Positions 4,032 through 23,715 of a DNA stretch of 34,925 bases are shown one piece after another (the first letter of the stretch is position 1; the number at the start of each line of letters is the position of its first letter). The DNA comes from Myxosarcina sp. GA_180221_E-2-1-MAG-40_15 (lineage in GTDB: Bacteria; Cyanobacteriota; Cyanobacteriia; Cyanobacteriales; Xenococcaceae). The stretch is from positions 1-34,925 of the forward strand of contig JAIMKV010000003.1 in the NCBI GenBank assembly GCA_020692205.1, given 5' to 3'. Below the pieces are notes generated by a model. The model ran no database searches. It was not told the origin of the DNA and was given only the letters and a program-made list of their open reading frames with translations. A program made the position numbers and the translations under genes.

Positions 4032-4063
4032 CTCACAAGTTCCTCAAATTTTAGATATATGAT
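4032..4063 (+). promoter_or_regulatory. Conserved CTCACAA-type promoter, copy 1 (pentapeptide gene)
   Basis: The box CTCACAAGTTCCTCAAATT (4032-4050) is followed by a TATGAT -10 hexamer at 4058-4063, beginning 26 nt after the first base of the box. The predicted start near 4070 leaves a 140-nt leader before the pentapeptide gene. Five more copies with the same register occur in this window. Confidence 0.65.
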
Positions 4064-4209
4064 CTTTTGATATGGAGGCATAATTATTTAACAAATTGTG
4101 ATGGTTGATTAAAGGTTAAAACTCCATTTTTATTTAATAGCTAACTCAAGTAATTAATTTTGTTGTCTGAGCTAGCTAGCGAATTGTTAGTCAAAGGAAC
4201 AACACGATT

Positions 4210-4743
4210 ATGAAAGCTACACAACTACTTCGTCAATATCGATATGGAATATTAGATTTTAATGGTGCCAGCCTACATGCTGCTCATCTTCAAGCTGCCG
4301 ATTTAACTCGGATTAATTTGACTCAAGCAGATCTAAGTGATGCTAACTTAAACGATGCTGATCTAAGCGGTGCTTGTCTAGAACAGGCTAATTTAACCAA
4401 TGCTAATTTAGTCGGTACTAGTTTCGTCGGTGCCAATTTGTCAGAAGTTAATTTAATTGGCGCAGATCTAGAAAATGCCGATCTCAACGGCGCGGATTTA
4501 AGTGGTGCAGATTTACGTTGTGCCAATTTACACGGCGCTCATTTGTGTAGTGCCAATCTAACTGATGTCGATCTTGGTGGTGCAAACTTAACTAACGCCG
4601 ATTTAACTGAGGCTCAATTGGCGGGTACTGATATTTCCGTAGCCGAAACCAAAGGAATAAATTTAGAGGGGGTAAATTGGGGCGAAAGTGAAAGAAAACA
4701 GGAAAATACGTCTCATCGCTGGGTTAGTTGGTCGGGAAAATAA
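4210..4743 (+). CDS. Pentapeptide-repeat protein
   Basis: This 177-residue protein is made almost entirely of A(D/N)LXX pentapeptides from about residue 18 to 155, which fold into a right-handed quadrilateral beta-helix. Visible repeats include ADLSDANLNDADLSGACL and ADLNGADLSGADLRCANL. There is no signal peptide or membrane segment, so it is probably cytosolic. The first 20 residues (MKATQLLRQYRYGILDFNGA) match the cap often seen in cyanobacterial members, and the last 20 are charged and non-repeating. The molecular role of such proteins is mostly unknown; some mimic DNA, and nothing here points to that. The start is the ATG after AAAGGAACAACACGATT. It is preceded by a conserved CTCACAA-type promoter, suggesting co-regulation with five other genes in the window, and it converges with the kinase-like gene downstream, 23 nt away. 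Confidence 0.9.
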   Translation: MKATQLLRQYRYGILDFNGASLHAAHLQAADLTRINLTQADLSDANLNDADLSGACLEQANLTNANLVGTSFVGANLSEVNLIGADLENADLNGADLSGADLRCANLHGAHLCSANLTDVDLGGANLTNADLTEAQLAGTDISVAETKGINLEGVNWGESERKQENTSHRWVSWSGK

Positions 4744-4766
4744 AGATAGCTTGGTTGAAATAATAA

Positions 4767-6305
4767 CTAAATTATCTGGTTGATTCTTTTCTGCCAATTT
4801 TGAGAGGTATCGACGACAATTAGATCGTTATCGTTATGTTCTGCTGGGGTGAAAGCTTCGGCATTTGCCTGTTGGCTGGCAATTAAATCTACCCCCGCAT
4901 CGGAAATATCACCCTGCCGCTGATTTAAGCGATCGCGCAATACTGATACAGGTGCGGTACAGTAAATCATCTTTAAAGGTATGTTGTTAGCCTCTGCTTG
5001 AGAACTTACAGGTTGGCGCAGCTTAACGCGATCGTATTTAGCATCCAGAATTACCGTATATCCTTCCTTGGCTAGCATAATACCCAAATTTAAGAGACGA
5101 TCATAAGTTTTTTGTGTCATCTCCTGGGAGTAAAGATCAGCTGTTCCCGACTCATCTAGAGGTATTCCCCCGAGGTGTTTACGAACCGCATCAGAACGAA
5201 TTTGAATTGCACCTTTATTCTGGGCAATTGTTCTAGCGACGGTGCTTTTACCCGAACCTGATAAACCAGACATTAAAATTAAACTGCCTGAGGTGACTTG
5301 AGTATATTGAGCGGCTAGTCGATAGTAGTCGCTAGCAGTTTGGCTTGCTTGTTCACGATCTACTTGGCTAACTTGAGGATCGTCAAGCAAAAAAGAATTT
5401 ACTTTAGCCCTAACATAAGCCTGTCTGCTTAGATATAAAGGTAATACTAGCAGCCCTGTCCAGTCTCCTGAGTATTCAAGATAACTATTGAGAAAAGCAT
5501 TTTTCAAATCAGGTTGTTTTCTGGCTGCTAAATCCATGACGGTAAAAGCCACATCGTACATCGTATCCACGAAGCGAAAAGACTCATTAAATTCAATGCG
5601 ATCAAACAACTGAATTTTGTCCTGCCATAAGCAAATATTTTGCAGGTGCAAATCACCGTGACATTCTTTAATTCGCTGCTGTTTTACTCTCTGTTGCAAT
5701 AAATCTTCTCGTTCGGTAAAGAAAAAATCGGTATATGCTTTAGTAGCTTCAAACTGCTCTTTAGTCTGAACAACGCCAATATATTTTTGAGACTGGCGGT
5801 AGTTTTCCTCAAAAGCAGCACGAATGTGATCTACTGTGCCAAAGCTACTAATATAATTATTGGTTTGAGCCTGATGATGAAATTGAGCTACGATCTTGCC
5901 CAATTCTATAAAGCGATCGCTATTTAGTTTCCCTGCATCTAAAAGATTAGAGAATAAATTTTCCTGGGGAAACTGACGCATTTTCAGGGCATACTCAACG
6001 ATATTTTCTGAGTTAGCCAGCAAAAAATCATCATTACATTTACTAATTGGCACAACTTCTAAATACAGTTCAGGGGCAATTTCGTGATTTAGTCGCAATT
6101 CTGTTTCTAAGCAATGCTTTCTTTTTGAGAGAGTAGAGTAATCAAGAAACCCATAATCGACATTTTTCTTGATTTTGTAAGCATATTCTCCTGTTAAAAA
6201 AACATAAGAAGCATGAGTTTGCATGATCTCTATTTTTTCGGCAACAGCATGGGGATAAAAATTAGGCTGCTGCATCTGGGAAATTAAGTTAGCAATATCA
6301 CTCAT
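4767..6305 (-). CDS. Two-domain aminoglycoside phosphotransferase-like / AAA_33 ATPase protein
   Basis: This 512-residue protein has two kinase modules. The N-terminal part (about 10-320) resembles the APH/choline kinase fold: HGDLHLQNICLW near 217 is the catalytic-loop pattern and DRIEFNE shortly after is the metal-binding segment. The C-terminal part (about 335-510) is a P-loop kinase of the AAA_33/gluconate-kinase type with Walker A GLSGSGKST near 347 and a conserved RSDAVRKHLGG just after it. Fusions of this kind are widespread in bacteria (COG2187/COG0645), but their substrate is not established, so no pathway is claimed. It is the last gene of a minus-strand series that includes the KaiA-like gene 36 nt upstream, with which it may be co-transcribed. 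A heptamer-repeat patch lies in that 36-nt gap. The start MSDIANLIS is the first ATG; the ribosome site is weak. Confidence 0.85.
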   Translation of the reverse strand: MSDIANLISQMQQPNFYPHAVAEKIEIMQTHASYVFLTGEYAYKIKKNVDYGFLDYSTLSKRKHCLETELRLNHEIAPELYLEVVPISKCNDDFLLANSENIVEYALKMRQFPQENLFSNLLDAGKLNSDRFIELGKIVAQFHHQAQTNNYISSFGTVDHIRAAFEENYRQSQKYIGVVQTKEQFEATKAYTDFFFTEREDLLQQRVKQQRIKECHGDLHLQNICLWQDKIQLFDRIEFNESFRFVDTMYDVAFTVMDLAARKQPDLKNAFLNSYLEYSGDWTGLLVLPLYLSRQAYVRAKVNSFLLDDPQVSQVDREQASQTASDYYRLAAQYTQVTSGSLILMSGLSGSGKSTVARTIAQNKGAIQIRSDAVRKHLGGIPLDESGTADLYSQEMTQKTYDRLLNLGIMLAKEGYTVILDAKYDRVKLRQPVSSQAEANNIPLKMIYCTAPVSVLRDRLNQRQGDISDAGVDLIASQQANAEAFTPAEHNDNDLIVVDTSQNWQKRINQII

Positions 6306-6331
6306 GAAAAGTTTACGATGATGAATACAAT

Positions 6332-6353
6332 TGACTTCTGACTACTGACTTTC
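6332..6353 (-). repeat. Degenerate GAAGTCA heptamer repeat overlapping the KaiA-like stop codon
   Basis: On the minus strand this is three heptamer-like units (GAAAGTCA, GTAGTCA, GAAGTCA). The stop codon of the KaiA-like gene (6342-6344) lies inside it. It belongs to the same family as the arrays at 7536, 8098, 13227, 13686 and 23078. Confidence 0.75.
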
Positions 6354-6779
6354 TAGGTTACGATACATTTCTCCCAAATGAGCAATGACATCAATTAATG
6401 TGAGGCGAAAATCATCGAGATCTTCAGTATGTAAACCTTGAGATATTAGTTGTTGTTCCAGATTATCCATCAAGCTCATGTGAATTTCCACAACTTTATT
6501 AATAGGGAGATTAAAACAGAAAGCTTCTGCCACAAAGCGATCAATTAGGTTATTAATGTTGTCTTGCGAAGAGAAATAATCAAAAAGAATTTGCGAGTAG
6601 ACCAATTTTAGCCTGCTAAGTAATCTTTCTTGTTCTAAAGTAGATAGTTGATGAAAAGATTGTTGAGAATGTCTAGCAAAATAAATATCTGTAGATTTAA
6701 ATCGTGGCAATTGAGAATTCAATCTATTTTGTTGCGCTTGATGTCTATCGATGTGATATTTACTAATGGTTTTAGGCAT
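6342..6779 (-). CDS. Short KaiA-like clock protein (C-terminal KaiC-binding domain only)
   Basis: This 145-residue protein ends in a clear KaiA C-terminal domain (about 55-142): RLKLVYSQILFDYFSS, then FVAEAFCFNLPINKVVEIHM and FRLTLIDVIAHLGEMYR, which match the helical bundle by which KaiA dimerises and binds the KaiC tail to stimulate KaiC autophosphorylation. The preceding YFARHSQQSF resembles the interdomain linker. The roughly 135-residue N-terminal pseudo-receiver domain of full-length KaiA (about 285-300 residues) is absent; only about 35 polar residues precede the linker. Short KaiA proteins are known from filamentous cyanobacteria, but there, as in other species, kaiA sits beside kaiBC; no kaiB or kaiC is in this window. 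The last three residues (ESQ) and the stop codon are encoded in a GAAGTCA-type repeat. It is either the organism's only KaiA, relocated, or an extra paralogue. Confidence 0.85.
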   Translation of the reverse strand: MPKTISKYHIDRHQAQQNRLNSQLPRFKSTDIYFARHSQQSFHQLSTLEQERLLSRLKLVYSQILFDYFSSQDNINNLIDRFVAEAFCFNLPINKVVEIHMSLMDNLEQQLISQGLHTEDLDDFRLTLIDVIAHLGEMYRNLESQ

Positions 6780-7183: not shown

Positions 7184-7417
7184 TTAGCAGGCAAATGTTG
7201 GTTCAAGCACCTGTTTTCCTTCTGGTTCAAGATAAACTTCTAAGCGTCCGTCAAGTATGGTTTCAAATAAGATTCTTTGTTGAGGAAAGACAACTTTTTC
7301 ATAATTGCAGTTCTGACTGTCAAGTACACGAATCAGCTGGATGTTGCGTGTAGAATTGGTGTAACAGCACAGCATTTTCGCAGTCGATCGCTCAGTTGCT
7401 GGACAAGTAAGTAGCAT
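7184..7417 (-). CDS. DUF1830 protein
   Basis: This 77-residue protein belongs to DUF1830, a small cyanobacterial family: LCCYTNSTRNIQLIRVLD at about 16-33, then FERVVF-type YEKVVFPQQRILFE and a C-terminal segment ending in Cys. No membrane segment is visible. The function of the family is unknown. The start is set at the ATG of MLLTCPATERS because GCGAGGAAAAATT directly precedes it; an upstream TTG six codons earlier would bury that ribosome site. A conserved CTCACAA-type promoter with a TATGAT -10 box lies only 22 nt from this start (predicted transcript start near 7439), which supports the assignment and leaves almost no leader. Confidence 0.8.
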   Translation of the reverse strand: MLLTCPATERSTAKMLCCYTNSTRNIQLIRVLDSQNCNYEKVVFPQQRILFETILDGRLEVYLEPEGKQVLEPTFAC

Positions 7418-7445
7418 AATTTTTCCTCGCTTCAATCTAATTCAA

Positions 7446-7477
7446 ATCATAGTTTCTAAATCTGAAGAATCTGTGAG
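7446..7477 (-). promoter_or_regulatory. Conserved CTCACAA-type promoter, copy 2 (DUF1830 gene)
   Basis: Read on the minus strand, CTCACAGATTCTTCAGATT (7459-7477) is followed by TATGAT at 7446-7451, again starting 26 nt after the first base of the box. The predicted transcript start is about 22 nt before the DUF1830 ATG. Confidence 0.6.
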
Positions 7478-7535
7478 GAAGTTGACGAAAAACTAAAAAA
7501 TATTAATTACTCTGGTTAAGTCAGATAATTGAAAA

Positions 7536-7594: not shown

Positions 7595-7969
7595 TTACCA
7601 GCCGAGGAATCCAGAAATTTGGCTAGCTAGGGTAAGCGAATCGAAGGGTTTGTTGATTACGCCTTTTGCCCCTGCATTATAAAAGCGACGGCGATCGCTT
7701 GCTTGAGCTTTAGCCGTAATAAAGATAGTCGGAATATGTTTAGTTTTGGGGTTAAGCAGTAGTTTTTCAATCGTTTGGATTCCATCTACTTCGGGCATCA
7801 TCGCATCCAAAAGAATCGCGTCTGGCTGTTCGTCTTCAGCGATCGCTACTCCCTCCATCCCACCAGAAGCACCAATCATTTCCCAACCCGCCTCAGATTC
7901 TAAGCAAAAACGAGCTAAGGTTTTGATGTCATCCTCATCATCAATAAATAAAATGCGTCTTGCGTTCAT
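7595..7969 (-). CDS. Single-domain response regulator (REC only)
   Basis: This 124-residue stand-alone receiver has every key position of the family: acidic pair DDE at about 10-12, phospho-acceptor Asp in AILLDAMMPEVDG near 55, Thr in IFITAKA near 83, and Lys in INKPFD near 107. There is no output domain, so it acts by phosphotransfer or protein contact, like CheY or Spo0F. It lies directly downstream of the large PAS/GAF histidine kinase on the same strand, 187 nt away, and is its most obvious partner. It is a close paralogue of the receiver at 17040-17450, sharing the IGFINKPFD-like ending. Its stop codon is followed at once by a heptamer array. Confidence 0.92.
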   Translation of the reverse strand: MNARRILFIDDEDDIKTLARFCLESEAGWEMIGASGGMEGVAIAEDEQPDAILLDAMMPEVDGIQTIEKLLLNPKTKHIPTIFITAKAQASDRRRFYNAGAKGVINKPFDSLTLASQISGFLGW

Positions 7970-8156: not shown

Positions 8157-11100
8157 TTACTTTTGAGGTATTGTGAAGCAAAAAGTGCTGCCCTCTCCAT
8201 AAACACTTTCTACCCAAATTTTGCCACCGTGTTGTTCGACAATATGTTGACAAATAGCCAAACCAAGACCAGTACCGCCCTTTTGACGGGAATCAGAAGC
8301 GTCCACTTGTTGAAAGCGTTCAAAGATGGTTTCTAGCTTATCTTGAGGAATACCTCTACCCTTATCTTTAACTGCAAAGAGAACGTAGTTATTTTGTAAT
8401 TGAGCTGAGATTGAAACTTGACTGTTAGCAGGAGAAAACTTAATCGCGTTGCTGATTAGATTGGTGAGAGTTTGGACAATGCGATCGCGATCGCCCCAAA
8501 ATTCAACCGAAGGAGAATTAATTTCCCAGCTAATTTGCTGTTCTTCAGCCAGAGAACTAAGAGTATCTATTGCTTGCTGAATTACTTCAGTACTATCGCA
8601 GGGTTGCTGGTCAATTTCATCTCGTCCTGACTCCATGCGTTCTAAGTCCAGGATATCTTTAACCAAACGAGTTAGGCGATCGCTATTTCTCAACGCCATC
8701 TCTGCCATTTGTTTACCTGAAGTAGTTAGTTCTCCCAAACGGCCAGCACAGAGTAAGTGAATCACGCCATGAATCGAAGTTAGAGGAGTGCGCATTTCAT
8801 GACTGGCAATCGAAACAAATTCGCTTTTCATTTGTTCGACAGCTTTGCGATCGCTAATATCCTCTACCATTGAGAAAAAGCCTTTCACCTTGCCATCTGA
8901 GTCAAAATCAGGAATATAGGTGGCATTCGTCCAGTAGATACTACCGTTTTCATGGGTACGTTGATTCTCAAAAGTAACTGCTTTTCCCGCCAACGCAGTC
9001 TTGATGTAGGGCAGGGTTTTTTGATAGGTGTCTGCTCCCATTGTTTCTATTATAGGTCGTCCGAGCAGACTGGATCTTGGTTTGCCATACCAAGTTTCGT
9101 AGGTACGATTGTTATAGCGATAACGTTGTTGGTTGTCTACGTAGGAAATCAACACTGGTAGAGCATCAGTAATTAGCTTTAACTGTTCTTCACTACGTTG
9201 AAAAGATTTCTCGACCTGGATGCGATCGCTAACATCCATAATTGTCTCGAATACCTTGAGGACTGTTCCTTGAGCATCTAATGTTGGTTCACCTCTACTT
9301 TCTACATACTTAATCGTGCCGTTGGGTAATAGCAAGCGATAGCTAAACTGCCAAGGTATACCTTCAATATGGCCTTGATACAGCGTATTTTTAACTAACA
9401 GACGATCTTCTGGATGAACGCGAGCCAAAATTTCTTCACATGACGGTATGGGTTGTTCTCTGGGAAAATCTAAAATGGCAAACAATTCTTCTGACCAACT
9501 TCTCTGTTGAGTTTGATGATCATATTCCCAACTGCCTATTTTGGCGATTTTTTCAGCTTTTGCCAATAAAGATTTAGAATCCTGCAATTTTGCTTGTGCT
9601 TGATGTCTTTCGGTAATATCTTTGAGCATCACCGTAAACAGCATTCCTTCGCGAGTTCGCAGTTTAGCCACAGAAGCCTCCGCCGGGAACTGCTGACCGT
9701 TTTTGCAACGACCAAATACCTTGGTGTTACGTTCTGTCATCTGACGAGATTGCTTTGTCGATTGAGCAAATTGCTGAATATGCTGACGATGAACCTGACG
9801 AAATACTTCAGGTAAGAGCAGATCCAGAGGTTTTCCCATTATTTCTTGAGCCTGATAGCCAAAAATCTTTTCCGCACCCTGATTAAATAGTTGAATCTGC
9901 TGTTGTTCGTTAATGGAGATAATTGCTTCATCGGCATTGTCTAAAATACCTGCTAGCTTTTGTTGATTTTCTCTTAAGATTGCTTCTGTTTGTTTGCGTT
10001 CGGCTATTTCTGCCTGAAGCAGATTGTTGGTAGTAGTAAGCTCAGTAGTTCGTTGAGCTACAGACGCTTCTAGATTGTCCAGTAACTGAGCCTGAGATAA
10101 AGCTACGCCAATTTGATCGGCTAACTGCTTTAATAGTTGAATTTCAGGTTCTTGCCACTGTCGGGGAGCATAACATTGGTGGGCAATCAACAGACCTTGG
10201 AGGTTATTCTGGGAAAGAATGGGAACAACTAGTTTAGCCTGAATCTGAAACTGTGTTAGTAGCAGCTTCACCTCTGGAGCAATAGAAGCAGTAGCCAAAT
10301 TATTGATCGCCAATACTTCTCCCTGACGGTAGCTGGCTAAATATTCACCGCTCAACAGCGGATCGGCAAGTTGATAACCCAACATCGGTGGTAAATTGGG
10401 CAAGATCGCTTCGCTAATCGGTAAAGCAGTGTTGTTGGTTTTTAGTTCCACAATTAAAACGCGATCGCAAGCTAATAGATGCTGTACTTCAGTAACGGCG
10501 GCTTGCAGTAGCTCTTCTAGCTCAATCGACATCCGAATTTTGCTGGTGATCTCGGTCAGTAATTTTGTTTGTCGATACTGTTGTTCTAGCTGATTCCAAA
10601 CCCGACGTTGCTCGGTAACATCAATACCTGTAGCAATAATAAATTCTATTTTTCCTGCTGCATCCAATAGAACAGTATTTGACCAGGAAATCAAACGACG
10701 GCTGCCATCTTTAGCTACCCAATAATTTTCATACTGGTTGGACAGTTGCCCCACCAGCAGTCGCTCAAATATGGCTTGAACTGTGGTTTGGTCTTCGGGG
10801 GCAATTAAAATTGACCAGACTGACTGACCTTTAACTTCGGCAAAGCTATAGCCAGTAACTTGCTCGCAGGTATGATTAAAGCTAATTATCCTGCCTTGTT
10901 TATCTAATACAGCTACTAATGCACCTACGGTATTAACAACCGCTTGAGAAAAATCCCGTTCTTGTTTTAGTTGAATTTCCGCCTGTTTGCGATCGCTGAT
11001 GTCCCTAGTAACTGCTAACAGCGCGGTAATGCGATCGCCATCTTTTAAAGGAACAGCATGAGTCGATAGCCAGCAAGATGTTCCTTTTAATCCAGTTAGC

Positions 11101-12524
11101 TCAAATTCTAATTTCCCCGATTTCCCAGCAAATATGCTTTCTGTCAGGTCAATAAAAGCCTGACGATGTTTGATATTAATTAGAGGATAAACTGATTGAT
11201 TAATTACCTGTGTCCAGGAATCTGCCTCAATCATTGCCAATCCAGCGGAATTCATTTCGAGCAGTTTGCCCTCACGATCAAGTATTTTGACACACTCTGG
11301 TTCGGACTCAATAATGGTGCGGAGTAAATTTTCACTTCTAGCTAATTTTGATTCTGCTTGTTTGCGGGAGGTAATATCAGTATGAGAACCAGCGATCCTG
11401 AGCACATTTCCTGCCTCATCCCATAACGCCTGTCCTCGGGCTAAAATCCATTTATAGCTGCCATCTTTACACCGTAACCGATGCTCCGAAATATAAAGCG
11501 GAGTTTTCTGGGCAAAGTGGTCTTGAATCACTTCCTTTACCCAACCTAGATCGTCTGGATGAACTCGGCTAGACCATTCTGCTATAGTATTGCCAATTTC
11601 AGCCTCGCTATATCCCAACATCTCTTTCCAATGTCGAGAAAAGAATACTTCATTGGTTTTAAGATTCCAGTCCCAAATCCCGTCATTTGCACCTTTGAGT
11701 GCTAATTGCCATCTAGACTCGCTCTCGATTAAAGCTAGTTCGTTTTCCTTGCGCTCTGTAATATTTTGTGCTACTGCATAAATAATTTCCGCTTGTAGAT
11801 CAGGTTTTGCCGTCCATAACAGCCAGCGATAGCTACCATCTTTAGTGCGATAGCGATTCTCGAAAGAAATAGTAGTTTGTCCTGTGGCTAATTTTTCCAC
11901 CTCAGCTTGAGTTGCAGCGAGATCGCCTGGATGAACAAAGTCAAGGAACGGTTTGGCTAATAGTTCAGCTTCACTAAAGCCTAGAGTTTGGCTAAAACCA
12001 GGATTAATCCGTTTTAAATAACCATCCAAACCAAAGACACCGAGGATACTCGGCGTAAGCTCAAACAAATGCTCTAATTCTCGGACTTTGACTTGCCAAT
12101 CGTCCTGTTGCTGATTCTGGCTACAGGTTACTACCCACTCTGGTTCTAATTTAGACGGTAAGAACTGAATTAGGGCTTTAGTACCAATAAGCCCAACCAA
12201 TTCACGCTTTTGACCCAAAATAGGTAAATAGCTGAGGGAATACCGTTGTAAGAAAGACCAAACCACCTGAATATTCGGGCATTGCGATCGCTCCAGAGTC
12301 AGCACTGACTGAGTCATCACCGCATCTACCATGGCGGTTTTGAGATTAATGCCCTGAGATATTGCTCTTAGCACATCACCTTGAGTTAAAATCCCGACTA
12401 ATTCCGCTTCAACCACCAAAATACAGTCAAGCTGTTTTTGAGTAAATAAAGCGATCGCCTCCGAAAGCAAAGTATCAGGCGCAATGGTGACAGGATTAAA
12501 TTCAATGTACTGATCAATACACAC
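8157..12524 (-). CDS. CBS-PAS(7)-GAF sensor histidine kinase
   Basis: This 1455-residue cytosolic kinase starts with a CBS pair (about 1-122, ligand-binding, typically for adenine nucleotides). PAS domains follow at about 147-265, 266-393, 394-518 and 519-645, most ending in the DITER/DISDR-type linker motif. A GAF domain lies at about 646-816, then a coiled coil at 817-853 and PAS domains at about 854-977, 978-1104 and 1105-1228. HisKA begins near 1229 with the phospho-acceptor in SIASHEMRTPLTSIHG, followed by HATPase with N box LTNLISNAIKFSP, G1 KDKGRGIP and G2 GGTGLGLAIC. There are no membrane segments, receiver or Hpt domain, so it needs a separate regulator; the receiver just downstream is the best candidate. 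The start is a GTG (MCIDQYIEF) that begins the first CBS motif without an obvious ribosome site. No chromophore cysteine was identified in the GAF domain with confidence. Confidence 0.92.
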   Translation of the reverse strand: MCIDQYIEFNPVTIAPDTLLSEAIALFTQKQLDCILVVEAELVGILTQGDVLRAISQGINLKTAMVDAVMTQSVLTLERSQCPNIQVVWSFLQRYSLSYLPILGQKRELVGLIGTKALIQFLPSKLEPEWVVTCSQNQQQDDWQVKVRELEHLFELTPSILGVFGLDGYLKRINPGFSQTLGFSEAELLAKPFLDFVHPGDLAATQAEVEKLATGQTTISFENRYRTKDGSYRWLLWTAKPDLQAEIIYAVAQNITERKENELALIESESRWQLALKGANDGIWDWNLKTNEVFFSRHWKEMLGYSEAEIGNTIAEWSSRVHPDDLGWVKEVIQDHFAQKTPLYISEHRLRCKDGSYKWILARGQALWDEAGNVLRIAGSHTDITSRKQAESKLARSENLLRTIIESEPECVKILDREGKLLEMNSAGLAMIEADSWTQVINQSVYPLINIKHRQAFIDLTESIFAGKSGKLEFELTGLKGTSCWLSTHAVPLKDGDRITALLAVTRDISDRKQAEIQLKQERDFSQAVVNTVGALVAVLDKQGRIISFNHTCEQVTGYSFAEVKGQSVWSILIAPEDQTTVQAIFERLLVGQLSNQYENYWVAKDGSRRLISWSNTVLLDAAGKIEFIIATGIDVTEQRRVWNQLEQQYRQTKLLTEITSKIRMSIELEELLQAAVTEVQHLLACDRVLIVELKTNNTALPISEAILPNLPPMLGYQLADPLLSGEYLASYRQGEVLAINNLATASIAPEVKLLLTQFQIQAKLVVPILSQNNLQGLLIAHQCYAPRQWQEPEIQLLKQLADQIGVALSQAQLLDNLEASVAQRTTELTTTNNLLQAEIAERKQTEAILRENQQKLAGILDNADEAIISINEQQQIQLFNQGAEKIFGYQAQEIMGKPLDLLLPEVFRQVHRQHIQQFAQSTKQSRQMTERNTKVFGRCKNGQQFPAEASVAKLRTREGMLFTVMLKDITERHQAQAKLQDSKSLLAKAEKIAKIGSWEYDHQTQQRSWSEELFAILDFPREQPIPSCEEILARVHPEDRLLVKNTLYQGHIEGIPWQFSYRLLLPNGTIKYVESRGEPTLDAQGTVLKVFETIMDVSDRIQVEKSFQRSEEQLKLITDALPVLISYVDNQQRYRYNNRTYETWYGKPRSSLLGRPIIETMGADTYQKTLPYIKTALAGKAVTFENQRTHENGSIYWTNATYIPDFDSDGKVKGFFSMVEDISDRKAVEQMKSEFVSIASHEMRTPLTSIHGVIHLLCAGRLGELTTSGKQMAEMALRNSDRLTRLVKDILDLERMESGRDEIDQQPCDSTEVIQQAIDTLSSLAEEQQISWEINSPSVEFWGDRDRIVQTLTNLISNAIKFSPANSQVSISAQLQNNYVLFAVKDKGRGIPQDKLETIFERFQQVDASDSRQKGGTGLGLAICQHIVEQHGGKIWVESVYGEGSTFCFTIPQK

Positions 12525-12693: not shown

Positions 12694-12725
12694 CTCACAA
12701 GTTCCTCAAATTGCTGGTCTAAATT
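12694..12725 (+). promoter_or_regulatory. Conserved CTCACAA-type promoter, copy 3 (133-residue protein)
   Basis: CTCACAAGTTCCTCAAATT at 12694-12712 is identical over 19 nt to copy 1 at 4032. The TAAATT at 12720-12725 occupies the same -10 register. The predicted transcript start near 12732 leaves an 89-nt leader before the ATG at 12821. Confidence 0.65.
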
Positions 12726-12820
12726 TAATTAACAAATGTAGCTTGCTAAGCTTAATCAAATTGGTCATCTTTTATGCCCCGTCCGTCCATACGCGGTTAG
12801 AAGTATCTTAATTGAGAAAG

Positions 12821-13222
12821 ATGAAAACAAATCAAGAATATATCTACTCGTTTGCTAATGCCAGTTCTACTCTTAGAGTCATCAAGCATTTACGTCACCA
12901 ATATCAGTCACACTTAGATTCAGTAGCAGTCATCAATCTCATTGATTGCTGGTTGGTTAAAGTCAAGTTGAAAAACTCCATACCTTATCGCTTGGCTAAG
13001 AATCTTCAGGCTTTTTTCAGCGAGATGGGAGTTTTTGCTCAACCATCTACCAAAATAATGAATGTCTTAGCCAGACTAGAAGCTGGAGAATCGGTAGTTA
13101 AGATCATGAATCGCTATCAGGTGGTTATCGTAGCTCATGGCAAACCAGAAACGGAAGAAATTGAAATTTTTCGCGATCAGATTGTTGATCGACTGGGCTA
13201 TTGCCCACAAAACATGGCGTAA
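12821..13222 (+). CDS. Conserved-looking hypothetical protein, 133 residues
   Basis: I do not recognise this family. The protein is 133 residues, basic in its first half, without signal peptide or membrane segment. Several stretches look like an alpha/beta fold: SVAVINLIDCWLVKVKL (about 34-50) and YQVVIVAHGKP (about 105-115). The first ATG after GAGAAAG is taken as start; a TTG three codons upstream is possible. It carries a conserved CTCACAA-type promoter identical over 19 nt to that of the pentapeptide gene, so it probably shares its regulation. Its stop codon is followed after 4 nt by a GAAGTCA heptamer array, and it converges on a broken four-helix-bundle gene. Codon use and HIP1 content resemble the neighbours. 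Confidence 0.7.
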   Translation: MKTNQEYIYSFANASSTLRVIKHLRHQYQSHLDSVAVINLIDCWLVKVKLKNSIPYRLAKNLQAFFSEMGVFAQPSTKIMNVLARLEAGESVVKIMNRYQVVIVAHGKPETEEIEIFRDQIVDRLGYCPQNMA

Positions 13223-13265: not shown

Positions 13266-13677
13266 TTTGATTTAAGTGAGTTGATGGTAGTTACCAAGAT
13301 TCTGATGATGGAGTCTATTTCTTGAAGCAATAAAGCGAATTTTTGTTTTGGAACAAGATTGGTTTCAATCATTATTTCCATCCAGTATTCTGTAGGCGGC
13401 TTTTGAGTGGGAAGCTTCTCACTCAAAACGCGTCGTTTTCTCTCGCTTCTTTTAATGCTATTTCATATTTGCTAATAAAGTCTTTCTTTGACTGCGCTGA
13501 CTTAGCTTCTTTGCAGTTCGCGCCTACGCTTGTGCCAGAGCGTAAAAACTGCTTGGCTAATATTCTTACTGCATCATCATAATTATTACTCTTGCCGATA
13601 ATTTCTGTGTAGGCAAAAATAACTCTAGTAGCAAATTTCTTAGTTCTACTTTGAATAGAAATATTGCTATCTACCAT
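13259..13677 (-). pseudogene. Four-helix-bundle (S23/TIGR02436) gene broken by a palindromic insertion
   Basis: The intact 5' part (13423-13677) encodes 84 residues with the four-helix-bundle signature LRSGTSVGANCKEAKSAQSK and ALKEARE. It then runs into about 44 nt of foreign sequence and stops at a TGA inside it. Beyond the insertion another frame resumes the family's ending: EYWMEIMIETNLVPKQKF and then LLQEIDSIIRILVTTINSL, stopping at 13259. Joining both parts gives about 125 residues, the normal length. The insertion contains a 28-bp near-perfect palindrome at 13401-13428 and is not a multiple of three. These proteins were first found in 23S rRNA intervening sequences and are related to the accessory proteins of diversity-generating retroelements; their function in free-standing form is unclear. 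The start overlaps the 3' end of the upstream regulator gene by 11 nt. Confidence 0.8.
13401..13428. repeat. 28-bp palindrome inserted in the four-helix-bundle gene
   Basis: The halves TTTTGAGTGGGAAG and CTTCTCACTCAAAA are complementary at 13 of 14 positions, the exception being a G/T pair. With its flanks it forms an insertion of about 44 bp that interrupts an otherwise recognisable gene, so it appears to be a small mobile palindromic element. Confidence 0.75.
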
Positions 13678-15517
13678 TATTTTGAACTTCTGACTCCTGA
13701 CTTCTGACTTCTGACTTCAGAAGCTTGCTGCGACGTAAGCGATTTAAGATCCGATTAGCCAAGATTGAGCCAGTAACTGGCTTACAAATATAGTCGTCTG
13801 CGCCATTAGCAAAAGCCTGATCCTGAGTTTTTTCATCTTGATGTACGCTCAAAAATAAGATCGGTAGCAGTTGCCAACGGCGATCGCTTCTCAAGATCTG
13901 GCATAGTTCAATCCCGTTAATTTCAGGCATTTCTATATCTAGTACCAATAGATTTGGCTCAACATCTTCTAAAACCTCCCAAAAATGCTGTGGCTCATTT
14001 AGAGTAGTTAATTCAAAACCCCAAGGCTGAAGGGATATTTGCAAAGATAATAATACTTGCGGATCGTCATCGACAATCAAAATTTTGGCAGCAGCCCCCG
14101 CACTTTGGATTAGTTCAATCACGCAATTAATGGCGGTACTGGGTTCTACGGGATATTGTAAAGTCAGATTAACGCCTTTGCGGACTAGATCTAAGCGATC
14201 TTGTAATTGAGCCGATTCAGCGATCTCGACAATTGGTAACTGGGGCATTTGGTGGTGTAGCTGTTCGAGAAAAGCGACATCTTCTCCATCGGGAAAAGTT
14301 ATTTTTTGCAGCACCGCATCAATAGATTCCTGGGCAATTATCTCTCTGGCTCGCTCGAAATTAGATGCAGTGTAAGTTTTGATGCCGTTTTTGTGTGCTT
14401 CGGTAACTAACCTTTGGCTAAAATCAGCGTCGCGATTAATGATCAACAGCGTAATATTCTGATTCAGAGCATTTTTAACAGTTGCCTCAAAGGGCTGATG
14501 CTGCAATTCATGCTGAAGTGAGGAAATTAATTGGTTAATCTGTTGAATATCAGCCTCAGTATCAGAGTCGCTGTTTAATAATTGTTCGAGCTGTTTGGCA
14601 ATTTTTGAGCCATTGGGAAAACCAAAACAGCCTAATGAGCCTGCCAGTTTATGTGCCGAGTTTTTGGCTTGAGTATGTATTTCTGGAGTTACTTGTGCTT
14701 CTACCAGTGCTATAGCTAGATTGTCTAAATCAGTTAACCTTTGAAACGCCAAATCTTTAAATTTAGACCAAGTTTTAGTGATTACCGTCCCTCGATCTTG
14801 CTGATCGCTAATAGTTTGAGCCAGGCTAGACTGTTGATAATCTTCATCAGACTTGAGACGATAACCGACACCATAGACGGTTTTAATCGTATCCTTGTCC
14901 ATACCTGCCGCCTTGAGCTTTTGACGTAAGCCTTTAATATGGGTTCTGACTGCTTCTTCTCCTGGGGGATCTTCTCCCGCCCACAGGTTATTGATAATCG
15001 CTCCTGGGCTAAATACCTGTTGGGGATGGCGCATAAACAGCTCGATCATGCCATATTCTTTGGGAGTGAGCGGTAATAACTGCTCTTGATAATGCACCTC
15101 ATGAATTTTTGGATCGAGACTTAAATCCTGCCACTGCAAGATAGGAGAGGAAATACCAACTTCTCGCCGTAGCAAAGCCCGAATTCTCGCGGTAAGTTCG
15201 TCAAAATCGAAGGGTTTGACGACATAATCATCCGCACCAGCATCCAACCCGATGACTTTATCATTATGGCGATCGCGGGCAGTCAACAGCATAATGGGCA
15301 TAGTATAGCCTTCAGCTCTAATTTGCTGACACAGAGCTACTCCATCCACATCAGGCAACATCCAGTCGAGAACTATCAAATCAAAGTCAAACAGTAAAAT
15401 GAACTCCCAGCCCATTTCACCCGTGTTGGCAAGATCAACTGCATAACGCTGAGCGATTAGTTTGTCAGCTAAAACTTCCATTAGCTGTTCATCGTCATCT
15501 ATAAGTAAAATTCTCAC
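13667..15517 (-). CDS. Multidomain response regulator REC-wHTH-Hpt-REC-REC
   Basis: This 616-residue regulator begins as a standard OmpR-family protein: REC at about 1-118 (DDDE, phospho-Asp in LIVLDWMLPDVDG, KPFDFDE) and winged helix at about 128-226 ending TVYGVGYRLK. It continues with an Hpt domain (about 250-335, phospho-His in NSAHKLAGSLG), a second receiver-like domain at about 352-470 and an intact third REC at about 480-600 (DDDP, LLVLDIEMPEING, ICKPV). The middle receiver is degenerate: the acceptor position reads LQKITFP with no Asp, and the conserved Lys is missing in LQYPVE. The intact Hpt and REC modules suggest a phosphorelay output. The last 15 or so residues (SEVRSQESEV and following) are a translation of a GAAGTCA heptamer array, so the original protein probably ended near RRSKLL. 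It diverges from the Crp-type regulator gene. Confidence 0.9.
   Translation of the reverse strand: MRILLIDDDEQLMEVLADKLIAQRYAVDLANTGEMGWEFILLFDFDLIVLDWMLPDVDGVALCQQIRAEGYTMPIMLLTARDRHNDKVIGLDAGADDYVVKPFDFDELTARIRALLRREVGISSPILQWQDLSLDPKIHEVHYQEQLLPLTPKEYGMIELFMRHPQQVFSPGAIINNLWAGEDPPGEEAVRTHIKGLRQKLKAAGMDKDTIKTVYGVGYRLKSDEDYQQSSLAQTISDQQDRGTVITKTWSKFKDLAFQRLTDLDNLAIALVEAQVTPEIHTQAKNSAHKLAGSLGCFGFPNGSKIAKQLEQLLNSDSDTEADIQQINQLISSLQHELQHQPFEATVKNALNQNITLLIINRDADFSQRLVTEAHKNGIKTYTASNFERAREIIAQESIDAVLQKITFPDGEDVAFLEQLHHQMPQLPIVEIAESAQLQDRLDLVRKGVNLTLQYPVEPSTAINCVIELIQSAGAAAKILIVDDDPQVLLSLQISLQPWGFELTTLNEPQHFWEVLEDVEPNLLVLDIEMPEINGIELCQILRSDRRWQLLPILFLSVHQDEKTQDQAFANGADDYICKPVTGSILANRILNRLRRSKLLKSEVRSQESEVQNNGR
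13686..13718 (-). repeat. GAAGTCA heptamer array translated as the C-terminus of a regulator
   Basis: Four to five heptamer units lie inside the reading frame of the REC-wHTH-Hpt regulator and encode its SEVRSQESEV tail. Because 7 is not a multiple of 3, array length decides where the frame ends. Confidence 0.9.
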
Positions 15518-15618: not shown

Positions 15619-15650
15619 CTCACAAATTCTTCAATTCCTGTTAATAAGAT
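15619..15650 (+). promoter_or_regulatory. Conserved CTCACAA-type promoter, copy 4 (Crp-type regulator)
   Basis: CTCACAAATTCTTCAATT at 15619-15636 is followed by TAAGAT at 15645-15650, in the same register as the other copies. The predicted transcript start near 15657 lies 61 nt before the ATG. Confidence 0.6.
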
Positions 15651-15717: not shown

Positions 15718-16458
15718 ATGGTTTTATCCATCCAGCATCCTCCTCGCTTGGGCAATGGAGAGATACCCGCTCGTGCTAATCAGCTCTTAGGCTTACTACC
15801 AGAGTCGGAACTTCAGCAGCTGCTGTTTAGTTCACAACGCCTGGTTCTCCCCGCGAAACAAACTCTCTACCAACCTAACAAGGCGATTGAGCAAGTTTAT
15901 TTTCCGCTTCGCGGCATCATCTCCTTGGTTAATATTAGCGAAGCTGGTTTGATAGCTGAATCAGCTATGGTGAGTAATGAGGGCATGATCGCTACTGCGA
16001 CATTTTTGGGAGCTAATTTTATGGTCAATTGGGCGATCGCTCAAACTGATTGTCTTGTCATTAGCTTGCCCGTCAAGGTTCTGCGACAAGAATTTGCTTA
16101 CGGTGGGGAGCTACAACGCATCTTGTTGCGATACTCTCAAATCTTCTTGGCTCAAGTTTCACAAAACGTTTTCTGTAGCTGTCATCATACTTTAGAACAA
16201 CGACTGGCTCGTTGGCTGCTATCCTATAGCGATCGCTTAAATGCCAGTGAATTGTCGCTAACTCAAGAAACCCTTGCCGAACTAATTGGCGTTAGACGTT
16301 CGAGCTTATCTGTTGTCGCGGCAGATCTTCGTCAAAGAAACCTGATTGATTATTGTCGGGGCAAAATTATGATTTTAAACCCTATAGCTTTAAGAAGAGT
16401 TTCCTGTGAATGCGATCGCCTCATCTGGAATATATATTCTCGTTTACTAAATCTTTGA
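15718..16458 (+). CDS. Crp/Fnr-family transcriptional regulator
   Basis: This 246-residue protein combines a cyclic-nucleotide-binding-like beta-roll (about 35-150: VYFPLRGIISLV, then a GMIATATFLGA segment) with a C-terminal winged helix (about 165-235). The recognition region LTQETLAELIGVRRSSLSVV is typical of Crp/Fnr proteins. The beta-roll lacks the RxAS-type phosphate-binding cassette of true cAMP receptors, and there is no Fnr cysteine cluster, so the effector is unknown. It is not NtcA. The start ATG follows GAGGGTAAAAAATA. It is one of six genes with the CTCACAA-type promoter and the only DNA-binding protein among them, so it could pass that signal to further genes. No terminator is evident before the DUF1816 gene. 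Confidence 0.9.
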   Translation: MVLSIQHPPRLGNGEIPARANQLLGLLPESELQQLLFSSQRLVLPAKQTLYQPNKAIEQVYFPLRGIISLVNISEAGLIAESAMVSNEGMIATATFLGANFMVNWAIAQTDCLVISLPVKVLRQEFAYGGELQRILLRYSQIFLAQVSQNVFCSCHHTLEQRLARWLLSYSDRLNASELSLTQETLAELIGVRRSSLSVVAADLRQRNLIDYCRGKIMILNPIALRRVSCECDRLIWNIYSRLLNL

Positions 16459-20961: not shown

Positions 20962-21073
20962 TTTTACCACTCCCGTCAAGACAATTTGGCAATTTTGCGA
21001 TCTGAGTAAATTAAATTTTTCCAACTCGACTAACAGCTAGCCGCTAACTCCTGAGCGCGGAGTAGGGTTCACT

Positions 21074-21763
21074 TCAACAAGATTCGGCAAAACTTTTGTG
21101 AGTCTGTTTAGATAGCAAATTGCATACTTCTTGGTCAGATACTTGACTAAAATCTTCGTACCAGAAACCGACGGCACCAAGAGACTTTGGTGTGACTAGA
21201 CAAGTGATTTCGTCTACTAAAGTGGTTAATTGTCTAATGGTTTTTTGAGCTGCGACGGGAGTAGCAATAATAATTTTTTGGGGCTGATGTGACTGTAAAG
21301 CAGTTACCGCAGCGTGCATGGTTAACCCAGTAGCAATGCCATCGTCAACAAGAATAACTAGATTTCCCTTGATTTTGAGTAGGGGACGATAGTGTCGATA
21401 ACAGCATTCTCGCCATCTTAATTCAGCTTTGGCTCCAGCAGCGATCGCTTTTATTTGTTCTTGGTCAACATCATTGCTTTGAGTTATGTTTTCATCAATA
21501 ATCGTGATGTTACCACTGTAGTCATGAATTAAAGCCGATTCGGCGATCGCTCCCATTGCTGTTTCGGGATAGTCAGGTAGACCTAGTTTTTTGACCAAAC
21601 AAACATCCAGAGGCAGGTTTAGACTCTTCGCGATTTCATAAGCCACAGGTACGCCACCGCGTGGCAGCCCCAAGACTATTGCCTGGGGATGATTGACATA
21701 AGCAGTCAATTGTTGGGCTAATTTTCTGCCTGCTTCTGACCTATCGATAAACACTGCATTCAT
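21074..21763 (-). CDS. Phosphoribosyltransferase-family protein (COG1926 type)
   Basis: This 229-residue cytosolic protein has the type I phosphoribosyltransferase fold. The PRPP loop is VILVDDGIATGLTMHAAV near 125-142, preceded by the LGLPRGGVPVAYEIA segment at about 28-45. The family is often found with stress genes in bacteria; its substrate is not known, so no purine or pyrimidine role is claimed. The start is MNAVFIDRSEAG, after AGCAGGAACAGAAA. A longer frame starting at 21856 would read through the promoter, so it is rejected. The conserved CTCACAA-type promoter lies 21 nt upstream of the ATG by predicted transcript start, leaving almost no leader. It is the first gene of a minus-strand series that continues with ftsH, and it diverges from the alcohol dehydrogenase gene. 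Confidence 0.85.
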   Translation of the reverse strand: MNAVFIDRSEAGRKLAQQLTAYVNHPQAIVLGLPRGGVPVAYEIAKSLNLPLDVCLVKKLGLPDYPETAMGAIAESALIHDYSGNITIIDENITQSNDVDQEQIKAIAAGAKAELRWRECCYRHYRPLLKIKGNLVILVDDGIATGLTMHAAVTALQSHQPQKIIIATPVAAQKTIRQLTTLVDEITCLVTPKSLGAVGFWYEDFSQVSDQEVCNLLSKQTHKSFAESC

Positions 21764-21790
21764 TTTCTGTTCCTGCTTTAATCGATCTAA

Positions 21791-21822
21791 ACTATAGATC
21801 TTAAATTTGAGGAAATTGTGAG
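21791..21822 (-). promoter_or_regulatory. Conserved CTCACAA-type promoter, copy 5 (phosphoribosyltransferase)
   Basis: On the minus strand CTCACAATTTCCTCAAATTT (21803-21822) is followed by TATAGT at 21791-21796, in the same register as the other copies. The predicted transcript start near 21784 is 21 nt before the ATG at 21763. Confidence 0.65.
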
Positions 21823-21893
21823 TTCTTACAGTATTTTTCGGTTGAGTAGAACACACAGGTCAAACTCCAAAAGCTCAGAAGCTAAGAGCTACC

Positions 21894-21926
21894 TTAACCG
21901 ATCAATTGTCTTAACCCGAACTCAGG
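21894..21926 (-). repeat. 33-bp dispersed repeat, copy 1
   Basis: Read on the minus strand, these 33 nt match 33014-33046 (plus strand) at 32 of 33 positions. The shared part includes GTTCGGGTTAAGACAATTG and two GGTTAA hexamers 17 nt apart. Weaker similarity continues on the GGTTAA side. It lies in the leader or promoter region of the alcohol dehydrogenase gene. Confidence 0.85.
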
Positions 21927-21964
21927 TTTTGCTATGGTTAAATCAGAAGTTGCTTGGGGTAATT

Positions 21965-22951
21965 ATGATGCGCGCCATGATTTTAGATCGAGTAGGTCAA
22001 AAGCTACGAGAAGTTGAACTACCTTTACCGCAACCGCAACCCGAACAAGTATTACTCAAGGTTCATGTCTGCGGAGTATGTCGTACAGATTTACACATAG
22101 TTGATGGCGAACTAAGCAAACCTAACCTGCCCTTGGTATTAGGTCATCAAATTGTGGGAACGGTAGTCGAAACTGGAGCTAAAGCCAATAAATATCCCTT
22201 GGGTACTCGCGTTGGCGTGCCTTGGTTGGGACATACTTGCAATTGTTGTCGTTATTGTCTAGCTGGCAAAGAAAATTTATGCGATCGCGCTTTATTTACA
22301 GGCTACAATCTCAATGGTGGTTATGCTGAATATACCGTTGCCGACGAAAGCTTTTGTTTCCCGATTCCTGAAGGTTTTCCCAATCTACAGGCAGCCCCTT
22401 TACTTTGTGCTGGATTAATTGGCTATCGCTCCTATCGGATGACTGAAGATGCAGCCAGAATTGGTTTTTATGGCTTTGGTGCAGCAGCACATATTTTGCT
22501 CCAGGTGGCAAATTATCAAGGTAAGCAAGTATATGCTTTTACCCGTTCGGGAGATACTCAAGGTCAAGAATTTGCTCGCCATCTTGGTGCAGTTTGGGCA
22601 GGAAGTTCGGAGCAATTACCGCCAAAAGAATTAGACGCAGCAATTATCTTTGCTCCTGTTGGTAAATTAGTTCCCGCAGCACTGAAAGCAGTCGCCAAAG
22701 CTGGCATTGTAGTTTGTGCAGGTATTCACATGAGCGATATCCCCAGCTTTCCCTATCAGATTTTATGGTCAGAGCGAGTATTGCGATCGGTTGCCAATCT
22801 GACGCGCCGAGACGGCGAAGAGTTTTTGGCTTTAGCTCCACGAATCGGAATCCAGACAGAAGTTACAGCCTTTCCTTTATCTGAAGCTAACGAGGCTCTC
22901 AATGCTTTACGAACTGGAAAAATTAACGGTGCTGCCGTGCTAAGTATGTGA
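21965..22951 (+). CDS. Zinc-dependent alcohol dehydrogenase-family protein
   Basis: This 328-residue medium-chain dehydrogenase is of the COG1064 type and should interconvert an alcohol and an aldehyde with NAD(P)H. The catalytic zinc ligands are visible in HVCGVCRTDLHIVDG and LVLGHQIVG, and the structural zinc knuckle has four Cys in CNCCRYCLAGKENLC. The Rossmann nucleotide loop is GFYGFGAAAHILLQVA near 165-180. The start is ATG ATG (MMRAMILDRVG) after TTGGGGTAATT; an upstream in-frame start at 21818 runs through the divergent promoter and the dispersed repeat and is rejected. The physiological substrate cannot be inferred. It diverges from the phosphoribosyltransferase gene. Confidence 0.9.
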   Translation: MMRAMILDRVGQKLREVELPLPQPQPEQVLLKVHVCGVCRTDLHIVDGELSKPNLPLVLGHQIVGTVVETGAKANKYPLGTRVGVPWLGHTCNCCRYCLAGKENLCDRALFTGYNLNGGYAEYTVADESFCFPIPEGFPNLQAAPLLCAGLIGYRSYRMTEDAARIGFYGFGAAAHILLQVANYQGKQVYAFTRSGDTQGQEFARHLGAVWAGSSEQLPPKELDAAIIFAPVGKLVPAALKAVAKAGIVVCAGIHMSDIPSFPYQILWSERVLRSVANLTRRDGEEFLALAPRIGIQTEVTAFPLSEANEALNALRTGKINGAAVLSM

Positions 22952-23011
22952 GTTGGGTTATAGCCGTACCAAGTTAAGTTAGGATATATAGATTATCGGC
23001 TCGCAAGTAGC

Positions 23012-23077
23012 CCTAAAGGATGTTATACCCTTGTGGTACTAGCTCCGCGTCACACTAATTACGTGTCGTCCTTTAGG
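23012..23077. repeat. Dispersed element with CCTAAAGGA inverted ends
   Basis: CCTAAAGGA at 23012-23020 and TCCTTTAGG at 23069-23077 are 9-bp inverted arms. Between them, ATACCCTTGTGGTA is the reverse complement of a sequence that recurs inside the element at 29187-29324, which also contains TCCTTTAGG. It ends against a heptamer array after the CBS gene. Confidence 0.6.
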
Positions 23078-23114
23078 ACTGACTTCTGACTTCTGACTTC
23101 TGACTTCTGACTTC
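23078..23114 (-). repeat. GAAGTCA heptamer array after the CBS gene
   Basis: Five head-to-tail heptamers in the orientation GAAGTCA on the minus strand, beginning 2-3 nt after the stop codon of the CBS-pair gene. Confidence 0.9.
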
Positions 23115-23116
23115 AA

Positions 23117-23620
23117 TTAAGTTTCTTCAACCGCATCCCAAGCCGCTTCACATTCTTGCTCTATTTCTGATTGTAAATCGGCAGCTACGCGATTGTGTAA
23201 CATAGTTTGATGAATTTTTGCAGACAAGTTATTAGAAGCGGTTGGCTGTGTCACATTGGATTTCATGATTAAATCAGTTGTGGAAATCATGCCTAAAAGC
23301 TGTTTTTGAATTACGGGCGCTCTGGCGATTCCTGTTTCGGCAAATAGCCGGGCTACGTTTTTCAAATCCAAATCGGGATTAACTACAATACAGGGTTTGG
23401 TCATAATCTGGTAGACCATAATTGAATTAGGATCTCGATCTTGGCTAGCTACTTTATAAATAATGTCGGTTTCAGTCACAATTCCATAAGCACCGTCTTC
23501 ACTCGGTTCAACAATCAAAGAACGTACTCTTTTGTCTTTCATCAGGGCGATCGCTTCAGCTACGGTAGCTAGTGTATTAATCGTACATACTTTGGTGGTC
23601 ATGATGTCTGCTGCTTTCAT
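23117..23620 (-). CDS. CBS-pair protein
   Basis: This 167-residue soluble protein consists of two CBS motifs (about 5-60 and 68-125), forming one Bateman module that typically binds adenine nucleotides. Visible elements are MTTKVCTINTLATVAEAI, then GIVTETDIIYKV, and in the second repeat VIQKQLLGMISTTDLIM. A 40-residue acidic helical tail follows (IEQECEAAWDAVEET). It has no enzymatic domain, so it is likely an energy or redox sensor acting on another protein, as proposed for plant and cyanobacterial CBS-only proteins. I start at MKAADIMTTK after AGAGGAGAAGTGAA; the longer frame from 23677 lacks a ribosome site. A conserved CTCACAA-type promoter lies 57 nt upstream by predicted transcript start. 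Confidence 0.88.
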   Translation of the reverse strand: MKAADIMTTKVCTINTLATVAEAIALMKDKRVRSLIVEPSEDGAYGIVTETDIIYKVASQDRDPNSIMVYQIMTKPCIVVNPDLDLKNVARLFAETGIARAPVIQKQLLGMISTTDLIMKSNVTQPTASNNLSAKIHQTMLHNRVAADLQSEIEQECEAAWDAVEET

Positions 23621-23683
23621 TTCACTTCTCCTCTGAGTTAATCTTAAATACCAAGAAAAATAACTACTTTTAATCACTTCTAA

Positions 23684-23715
23684 ATACTAAATCCGATTGA
23701 TGAGAAACTTGTGAG
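23684..23715 (-). promoter_or_regulatory. Conserved CTCACAA-type promoter, copy 6 (CBS gene)
   Basis: On the minus strand CTCACAAGTTTCTCA (23701-23715) is followed by TAGTAT at 23684-23689, in the same register as the other five copies. The predicted transcript start near 23677 lies 57 nt before the CBS start codon. Confidence 0.6.

Follow-up and report, generated by a model that had tools for sequence, protein, structure and literature searches.

What joins the promoters of six genes within one stretch of cyanobacterial DNA, and which protein reads the signal that they share? The stretch (the window) comprises positions 1–34,925 of contig JAIMKV010000003.1, contig 58 of the 131-contig, 4.87-Mb genome of Myxosarcina sp. 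GA_180221_E-2-1-MAG-40_15 (GCA_020692205.1). An earlier note, made from its letters alone, had described a box beginning CTCACAA, followed in exact register by a -10 element, and had attributed it to a stress regulon. We find that the box is almost certainly a genuine cis-element. Our reading, to which we give a probability of about 0.7, is that it is the operator of a widespread fermentation and low-oxygen regulon, activated by an RcaC-like response regulator that is fed by a phosphorelay.

Control of fermentation, hydrogen metabolism and the response to anoxia has so far been pieced together in Synechocystis from the broad regulators SigE, cyAbrB2 and LexA, according to the part of PMC11368403 available to us. 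A sequence-specific operator with a fixed register, common to pfl/adhE, nifJ, hox, PPDK-type, phosphofructokinase and survival genes, makes the question testable when taken together with a candidate relay. With it, the genes that a cyanobacterium uses without oxygen could be predicted from its genome sequence.

Six promoters share one architecture

All six boxes are present at the positions and on the strands that had been claimed, and in 6/6 a TANNNT hexamer begins exactly 26 nt past the first base of the box. Boxes and their -10 hexamers are as follows.

4032–4063, plus strand: box (4032–4050) and -10 hexamer (4058–4063), upstream of the pentapeptide-repeat gene
7446–7477, minus strand: box (7477–7459) and -10 hexamer (7451–7446), upstream of the DUF1830 gene
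12694–12725, plus strand: box and -10 hexamer, upstream of the 133/136-residue gene and divergent from the kinase gene
15619–15650, plus strand: box and -10 hexamer, upstream of the Crp-type gene and divergent from the response-regulator gene
21791–21822, minus strand: box and -10 hexamer, upstream of the phosphoribosyltransferase gene
23684–23715, minus strand: box with four mismatches and -10 hexamer, upstream of the CBS-domain gene; matrix score 23.9, from a matrix that includes this site

Allowing up to three mismatches, the consensus recovers five of the six boxes in the window, against 0.36 expected from 100 shuffles (maximum 2, none reaching 5); the sixth (23715, minus) has four mismatches and an intact register. 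The two boxes reported to be identical over 19 nt are those at 4032 and 12694. A matrix scan of the window returned these six boxes only, with none upstream of its cupredoxin, FtsH and ADH genes.

Counting the bases at each position of 25 sites gives YTCACAA-N-TTCYTCAAATT. Within it lie two 7-bp half-sites, CTCACAA-N4-YTCANAT, which begin 11 bp from each other and leave a 4-bp spacer between them; a further 8 bp lead to TANNNT. The spacing that had been proposed for two CTCA half-sites is correct, but the first base of the second one may be C or T (YTCA). With the customary 17-bp spacing, a -35 hexamer would cover box positions 4–9 (ACAANT), which is unlike TTGACA. Operators of the OmpR/PhoB family have the same geometry, their half-sites being placed over the -35 region at a distance of about one helical turn. 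We infer that the promoter depends on an activator contacting polymerase. The box also differs, as had been suggested, from the NtcA site, since GTA-N8-TAC (centred near -41.5; consensus from the available part of PMC3898017) is absent from the 25-site consensus.

The box recurs across the source genome

We scanned the source genome with YTCACANNTTCYTCANANT-N7-TANNNT, allowing up to two mismatches, and obtained 27 matches against 0 for the mirrored pattern. The box alone, at up to three mismatches, matched 69 times (37 forward, 32 reverse), and its mirrored control 22 times (11 + 11). To assess the register we used the 22 box-alone matches with at most two mismatches, a set picked without regard to the -10. 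TANNNT stands at +26 in 19/22, and every other offset from 19 to 59 holds 0–3. The strand and start-codon preference expected of such promoters is seen genome-wide: 18/22 aim at the start of an open reading frame (ORF) of at least 60 aa within 300 nt, 4/22 have a divergent ORF start within 300 nt, and 2/22 lie inside an ORF of at least 100 aa. One in-ORF match falls in the phosphoribosyltransferase ORF as drawn from an upstream GTG; the likelier ATG, at 21763, follows the box. A box-only match on contig 17 (locus L015) was taken as chance because it lies inside an ORF and lacks a -10. None of the eight three-mismatch matches inspected has TANNNT at +26, and such matches were therefore left unused.

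The matches are concentrated on contig 58 at 4–49 kb and contig 50 at 129–153 kb. This clustering could point to a mobile or repeated element, or to chance AT-rich matches, without any regulatory role. Chance is ruled out by the shuffles and by mirrored controls near zero, and a repeat or mobile element by the fixed register, the direction towards start codons and the retention of the box upstream of orthologues. We regard both explanations as scarcely credible.

The box is conserved in several cyanobacterial families

Genomes, loci and families are cited below by our own handles (G, L and f), f1 being the family of the source genome. Box and register, with at most one mismatch, occur in 38 of 60 genomes (the source genome included), among them all 26 same-family relatives with 3–40 matches each; the mirrored pattern gave 4 matches in all 60 genomes together. 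Of 388 genomes drawn from across the class, 137 carry box and register and 251 have no match. Counts are high in many genomes of families f33, f45, f48, f56 and f58; f34, f8, f14, f37, f49 and most of f55 have no or hardly any matches.

Conservation upstream of orthologues had been proposed as a check. The box precedes the 136-residue gene in 6/6 genomes examined (G007, G012, G014, G015, G019, G022) and the phosphoribosyltransferase orthologue in 3/4 (G001, G012, G015; not G043). At the G012 counterpart of the 15619 site the box is present (matrix score 17.0) and the -10 register is not kept. Overall, a box lies upstream of 27/44 target orthologues against 35/543 other ORFs, a comparison that is biased because many loci were fetched for their boxes; tests on nifJ and pflB were therefore made.

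A literature search by title and abstract opening, with subscription papers (including a Nostoc hox study) outside it, found no earlier description of the box letters or the regulon. The available parts of the Chlorogloeopsis and Acaryochloris papers (PMC10830646, PMC5295598) contain nothing on the box.

Target genes point to fermentation and low-oxygen survival

The six targets in the window are listed here.

4210–4743, plus strand: pentapeptide-repeat protein (Pfam)
7184–7435, minus strand: DUF1830 protein (Pfam)
12812–13222, plus strand: conserved protein of 136 residues without a Pfam match
15718–16458, plus strand: Crp-type regulator (Pfam)
21074–21763, minus strand: phosphoribosyltransferase (Pfam), starting at the ATG past the box
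23117–23677, minus strand: CBS-domain protein (Pfam)

Across the source genome, Pfam identifies metabolic targets (pyruvate:ferredoxin oxidoreductase, PFOR/NifJ; phosphofructokinase; a PPDK-type enzyme; a nitroreductase-like protein) and survival proteins (two Hsp20, two universal stress proteins (Usp) in a row, CBS proteins). Other targets are two pentapeptide proteins, a PRC-barrel protein, a PII-like protein, the Crp-type regulator, the phosphoribosyltransferase, an OsmC-like protein encoded second after a DUF1816 gene, and members of DUF1830, DUF4278, DUF4327 (twice) and DUF2808. Beside the 136-residue protein, three more box genes (165, 266 and 312 aa) have no Pfam match.

The nifJ loci were fetched without regard to the box, and a locus was scored positive when its best upstream score was at least 19. 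A box precedes nifJ in 19/31 genomes with at least four box matches against 0/18 with at most two (Fisher 8.9e-6), each genome's count including its own nifJ box. L273, without upstream DNA, was left out, and the test is without second copies in G332, G195, G264 and G022. Upstream scores are bimodal (≥13.8 or ≤8.7). Genomes with two different nifJ copies and upstream DNA carry the box on exactly one copy in 9/9 cases (L255/L272, L281/L297, L280/L296, L284/L302, L285/L299, L283/L298, L282/L303, L288/L301, L286/L300), which might serve to identify the fermentative copy. G343 is not among them; its two nifJ rows score alike at the same coordinates on two contigs, which looks like a duplicated contig. 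For pflB, the best 30 loci among matches in 126 genomes were used: a box lies upstream in 15/24 genomes with at least two matches against 0/6 with none, again with the gene's own box in the count, and the mirrored control gave 0/30 at score 13. Both queries were genes already known to bear a box; minus those genomes the fractions are 18/30 and 14/23.

Further anaerobic genes lie downstream of boxes. G142 has a box followed by Usp-hoxE-hoxF-hoxU-(one ORF)-hoxY-CBS/CP12-hoxH, where HoxE and HoxU were identified by NCBIfam above cut-off and hoxF, hoxY and hoxH by family resemblance below cut-offs; G183 has a similar run. A 12-kb run in G043 holds seven boxes of score at least 21, with a nifJ start, Hsp20, PRC, phosphoribosyltransferase and a Nuo51-type gene, and with a hydrogenase protease, HypA and HypF past the last box. 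A box stands upstream of pflB-pflA-adhE in G383, and about 460 nt upstream of a hydrogenase protease gene, then acetate-CoA ligase, in G255. In G423 a box lies about 0.5 kb upstream of psbA (L220:15878-17467). Low-oxygen D1 genes have been reported in other cyanobacteria, and this psbA could be one.

Two details of these runs deserve record. The CBS protein between presumed hoxY and hoxH (L207:14418-15056 in G142, with a CP12 domain at its end; L233:17092-17706 in G183) is, in its CBS-CP12 form, a hint that hydrogenase is linked with adenylates and the Calvin cycle. At L140:105-1058 in G043, the box is followed by just ~112 residues of nifJ (POR_N) and then by an ORF with a DDE transposase domain, and this nifJ looks interrupted.

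The stress regulon of the earlier note stands as a regulon; its targets in this and other genomes refine it to fermentation and low-oxygen survival, an assignment that we consider very probable. A general stress, desiccation or dark-survival response, with fermentation genes as just one part, would fit the Usp, Hsp20, CBS, OsmC-like, pentapeptide and PRC-barrel targets. We judge it rather unlikely, as anaerobic-metabolism genes (nifJ, pflB, hox, PPDK-type) carry the box in several families.

A candidate RcaC-like regulator and a putative relay adjoin the box

Within the window, three genes of a putative phosphorelay lie among the boxes.

13667–15517, minus strand: candidate regulator, RcaC-like (Pfam: receiver, OmpR-type winged helix, Hpt, degenerate receiver, receiver)
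8157–12524, minus strand: candidate sensor, a hybrid histidine kinase (Pfam: CBS, several PAS, GAF, HisKA, HATPase; motif SHEMRTP)
7595–7969, minus strand: single-receiver protein past the kinase gene (Pfam Response_reg only; LLDAMMPE)

Pfam places Response_reg in three stretches of the regulator, Trans_reg_C at residues 148–221 and Hpt at 253–335. The first acceptor motif is LDWMLPD, the Hpt motif AHKLAGS and that of the last receiver LDIEMPE; the middle receiver reads AVLQKITFPDG, without an acceptor Asp. The kinase has no PHY domain (15 families) and does not class as a phytochrome-class light sensor. From its presence and place, the single receiver may play an RcaF-like role.

Regulator, kinase and single receiver adjoin boxes in the source genome, in G012, G007 and G014 of the same family, and outside it in G030, G029, G412, G142, G183, G132, G272 and G214. 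A box lies past the single receiver in the source genome, G030, G029, G412 and G132, and G214 keeps the order of the window (kinase, box, small gene, regulator). Regulator and kinase are fused in one protein (Pfam) in G142 and G183, divergent from the Usp-hox box; in G171 a Usp box and a regulator gene, truncated where the stretch ends, are divergent.

We built a tree of 64 RcaC-like proteins, leaving out the truncated L088 and L179. Group A consists of f1 plus G195 and G214 (support 99/97), and group B has support 95/95. Around regulators whose loci (~4.8 kb, source genome included) were fetched by regulator and not by box, a box scoring at least 21 was found in 15/24 of group A, 5/10 of group B and 1/22 of other RcaC-like proteins (mirrored control 0/56; Fisher 4.0e-5). 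The recognition-helix string VRTHIKGLR occurs in 22/24 of A, 9/12 of B and 0/25 of the others. A regulator in A or B is present in 10/12 box-rich genomes against 1/10 genomes with 0–2 matches. Linkage, phylogeny and the conserved recognition helix thus make the RcaC-like regulator the probable reader of the box. The OmpR-type activator that had been postulated would then have its candidate at 13667–15517.

Several observations weigh against the proposed reading, beside the inclusion of a gene's own box in the nifJ and pflB counts. The tree does not unite the regulators with a box nearby in a single clade (16 changes against a shuffled mean of 20.5; 12/500 shuffles as low), and counts are not independent because same-family loci share synteny. 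No clear regulator orthologue accompanies the boxes of G024 (96% complete) and G025 (81%), and G025 lacks a clear kinase as well; the tree places no regulator of the box-rich G306 in A or B, and the truncated regulator of G264 is not in it; G007 and G009, which possess both regulator and kinase, have just three box matches each. A VRTQIK helix and the box variant CTCACAAAATCCTCACA occur together in G029, G052 and G412 (L205, L206 and L216 near the box), but this covariation is not clean, as G043 combines VRTQIK with ordinary boxes and a variant-like box also occurs in G233 (L330). On the side of the targets, the examined nifJ lacks a box in 12/31 box-bearing genomes and pflB in 9/24, and a fermentative role is not obvious for several targets (PII-like, DUF2808, Crp). 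For the mapped hoxE start of Lyngbya majuscula, the available part of PMC2674450 reports a -35 as well as LexA/IHF sites.

The genomes with boxes and no matching regulator (G024, G025, G306) would be explained if the same regulon were read by another factor, of the OmpR type or of an unrelated family, with the Rca-type cassette a mere neighbour or upstream member. Short OmpR-type regulators (~226–240 aa) reach 50–58% identity over receiver and winged helix and could supply such a factor. Against this, the cassette stands next to boxes in families far apart, boxes are enriched near regulators of groups A and B, and the helix string is kept in these groups and absent from the others; we see another reader as possible, though clearly the less probable choice.

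The box could instead be an unusual -35 that SigE or another alternative (group 2) sigma factor recognises with no dedicated activator, which would account for a -10 at constant distance. In Synechocystis, hox and nifJ are driven by SigE, whose published -10 consensus is TANNNT (PMC11368403, available part). This hexamer fits ordinary sigma-70 as well, and a 19-bp element with an 11-bp direct repeat exceeds a -35 and suits an activator better. Box and register are moreover missing from 251 of the 388 genomes, and box presence tracks the response-regulator groups. One regulon, one promoter architecture and a site with two half-sites over the -35 region, all parts of the original proposal, are upheld; its other option, an alternative sigma factor alone, loses ground because the conserved 19-bp direct repeat goes with two response-regulator groups, and we hold it improbable. 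SigE or another group 2 sigma factor could nonetheless supply the polymerase at an activator-bound box.

As a separate observation, a box in G306 begins ~60 nt upstream of an RcaC-like regulator gene (L236:1408-2654), suggesting autoregulation in that genome.

Proposed relay and relation to known systems

For activation by the RcaC-like regulator we propose the following scheme. The hybrid CBS/PAS/GAF kinase (8157–12524) would pass phosphate to the single receiver (7595–7969) and from there to the Hpt and receiver domains of the regulator (13667–15517). The regulator would bind CTCACAA-N4-YTCANAT on one DNA face, at about -38 to -20, and would activate a sigma-70-type promoter with a TANNNT -10 and no TTGACA-type -35; activation appears likelier than repression. 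Candidate signals are low oxygen, a reduced redox state, or adenylate charge sensed by the CBS domains.

In chromatic acclimation the relay runs from RcaE through RcaF to RcaC, which activates through the L box (PMC8256508, available part). The window resembles it in combining a kinase, a single receiver and a regulator of receiver-winged helix-Hpt-receiver type with a presumably activating promoter operator. RcaC itself has the domain order receiver-winged helix-Hpt-receiver, RcaF is a single receiver, and the L box reads TTGCACA-N4-TTGCACA. The 7-4-7 direct-repeat geometry is thus shared, but the half-sites here are CTCACAA and YTCANAT, the regulator has an extra degenerate receiver, the sensor carries CBS, PAS and GAF domains, and the box precedes genes for fermentation and survival, not for phycobiliproteins. 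The cassette would work like Rca without serving chromatic acclimation, because sensor and operator differ. If so, a relay design known from light-colour sensing has been reused for energy or oxygen sensing.

The Pho box and the HLR1 of RpaB likewise involve an OmpR-type winged helix and half-sites about one turn apart over the -35 region; the half-site here differs from CTGTCAT, from the cyanobacterial Pho box and from TTACA-type HLR1 repeats. FNR and DosR regulons are alike in that fermentation enzymes come under the same regulator as Usp, Hsp20 and CBS proteins, but their operators are palindromes, whereas ours is a direct repeat, and the protein families differ. By extension, we see about an even chance that the box system does in cyanobacteria what FNR/DosR do elsewhere. 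A single Rca-type phosphorelay, its CBS/PAS sensor responding to adenylate charge plus oxygen or redox, would then be the master switch of fermentation, hydrogenase, dormancy genes and an anaerobic psbA; it would be present in many large-genome families and absent from small-genome ones, and the recognition helix would be kept together with the box regulon.

Control of Synechocystis hox and nifJ is ascribed to SigE, cyAbrB2, cyAbrB1, LexA and possibly Rre34 (available parts of PMC11368403 and the review PMC13421787). Microoxic induction of hydrogenase and PFOR and the SigE -10 TANNNT are shared features, but the available part of PMC11368403 describes no such box or cassette. ChlR also activates at low oxygen in cyanobacteria; unlike our candidate it belongs to the MarR family, with a palindrome, TTMCC-N3/4-GGWAA, at tetrapyrrole genes (PMC13421787, available part). 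The published hoxW start of Nostoc PCC 7120, with a -10 TAGCTT and no -35 (PMC2670836, available part), would suit the promoter type and was not counted as support.

Two minor features concern individual genes. A small ORF of 84 aa (window 13423–13677, minus strand) lies between the 136-residue target and the regulator, and G012 has no ORF of at least 80 aa at this place. On contig 50 of the source genome (L033:2254-3076), a box stands upstream of a berberine-bridge-type oxidase gene, seemingly split between two overlapping frames, which seems to be either a broken gene or an assembly error.

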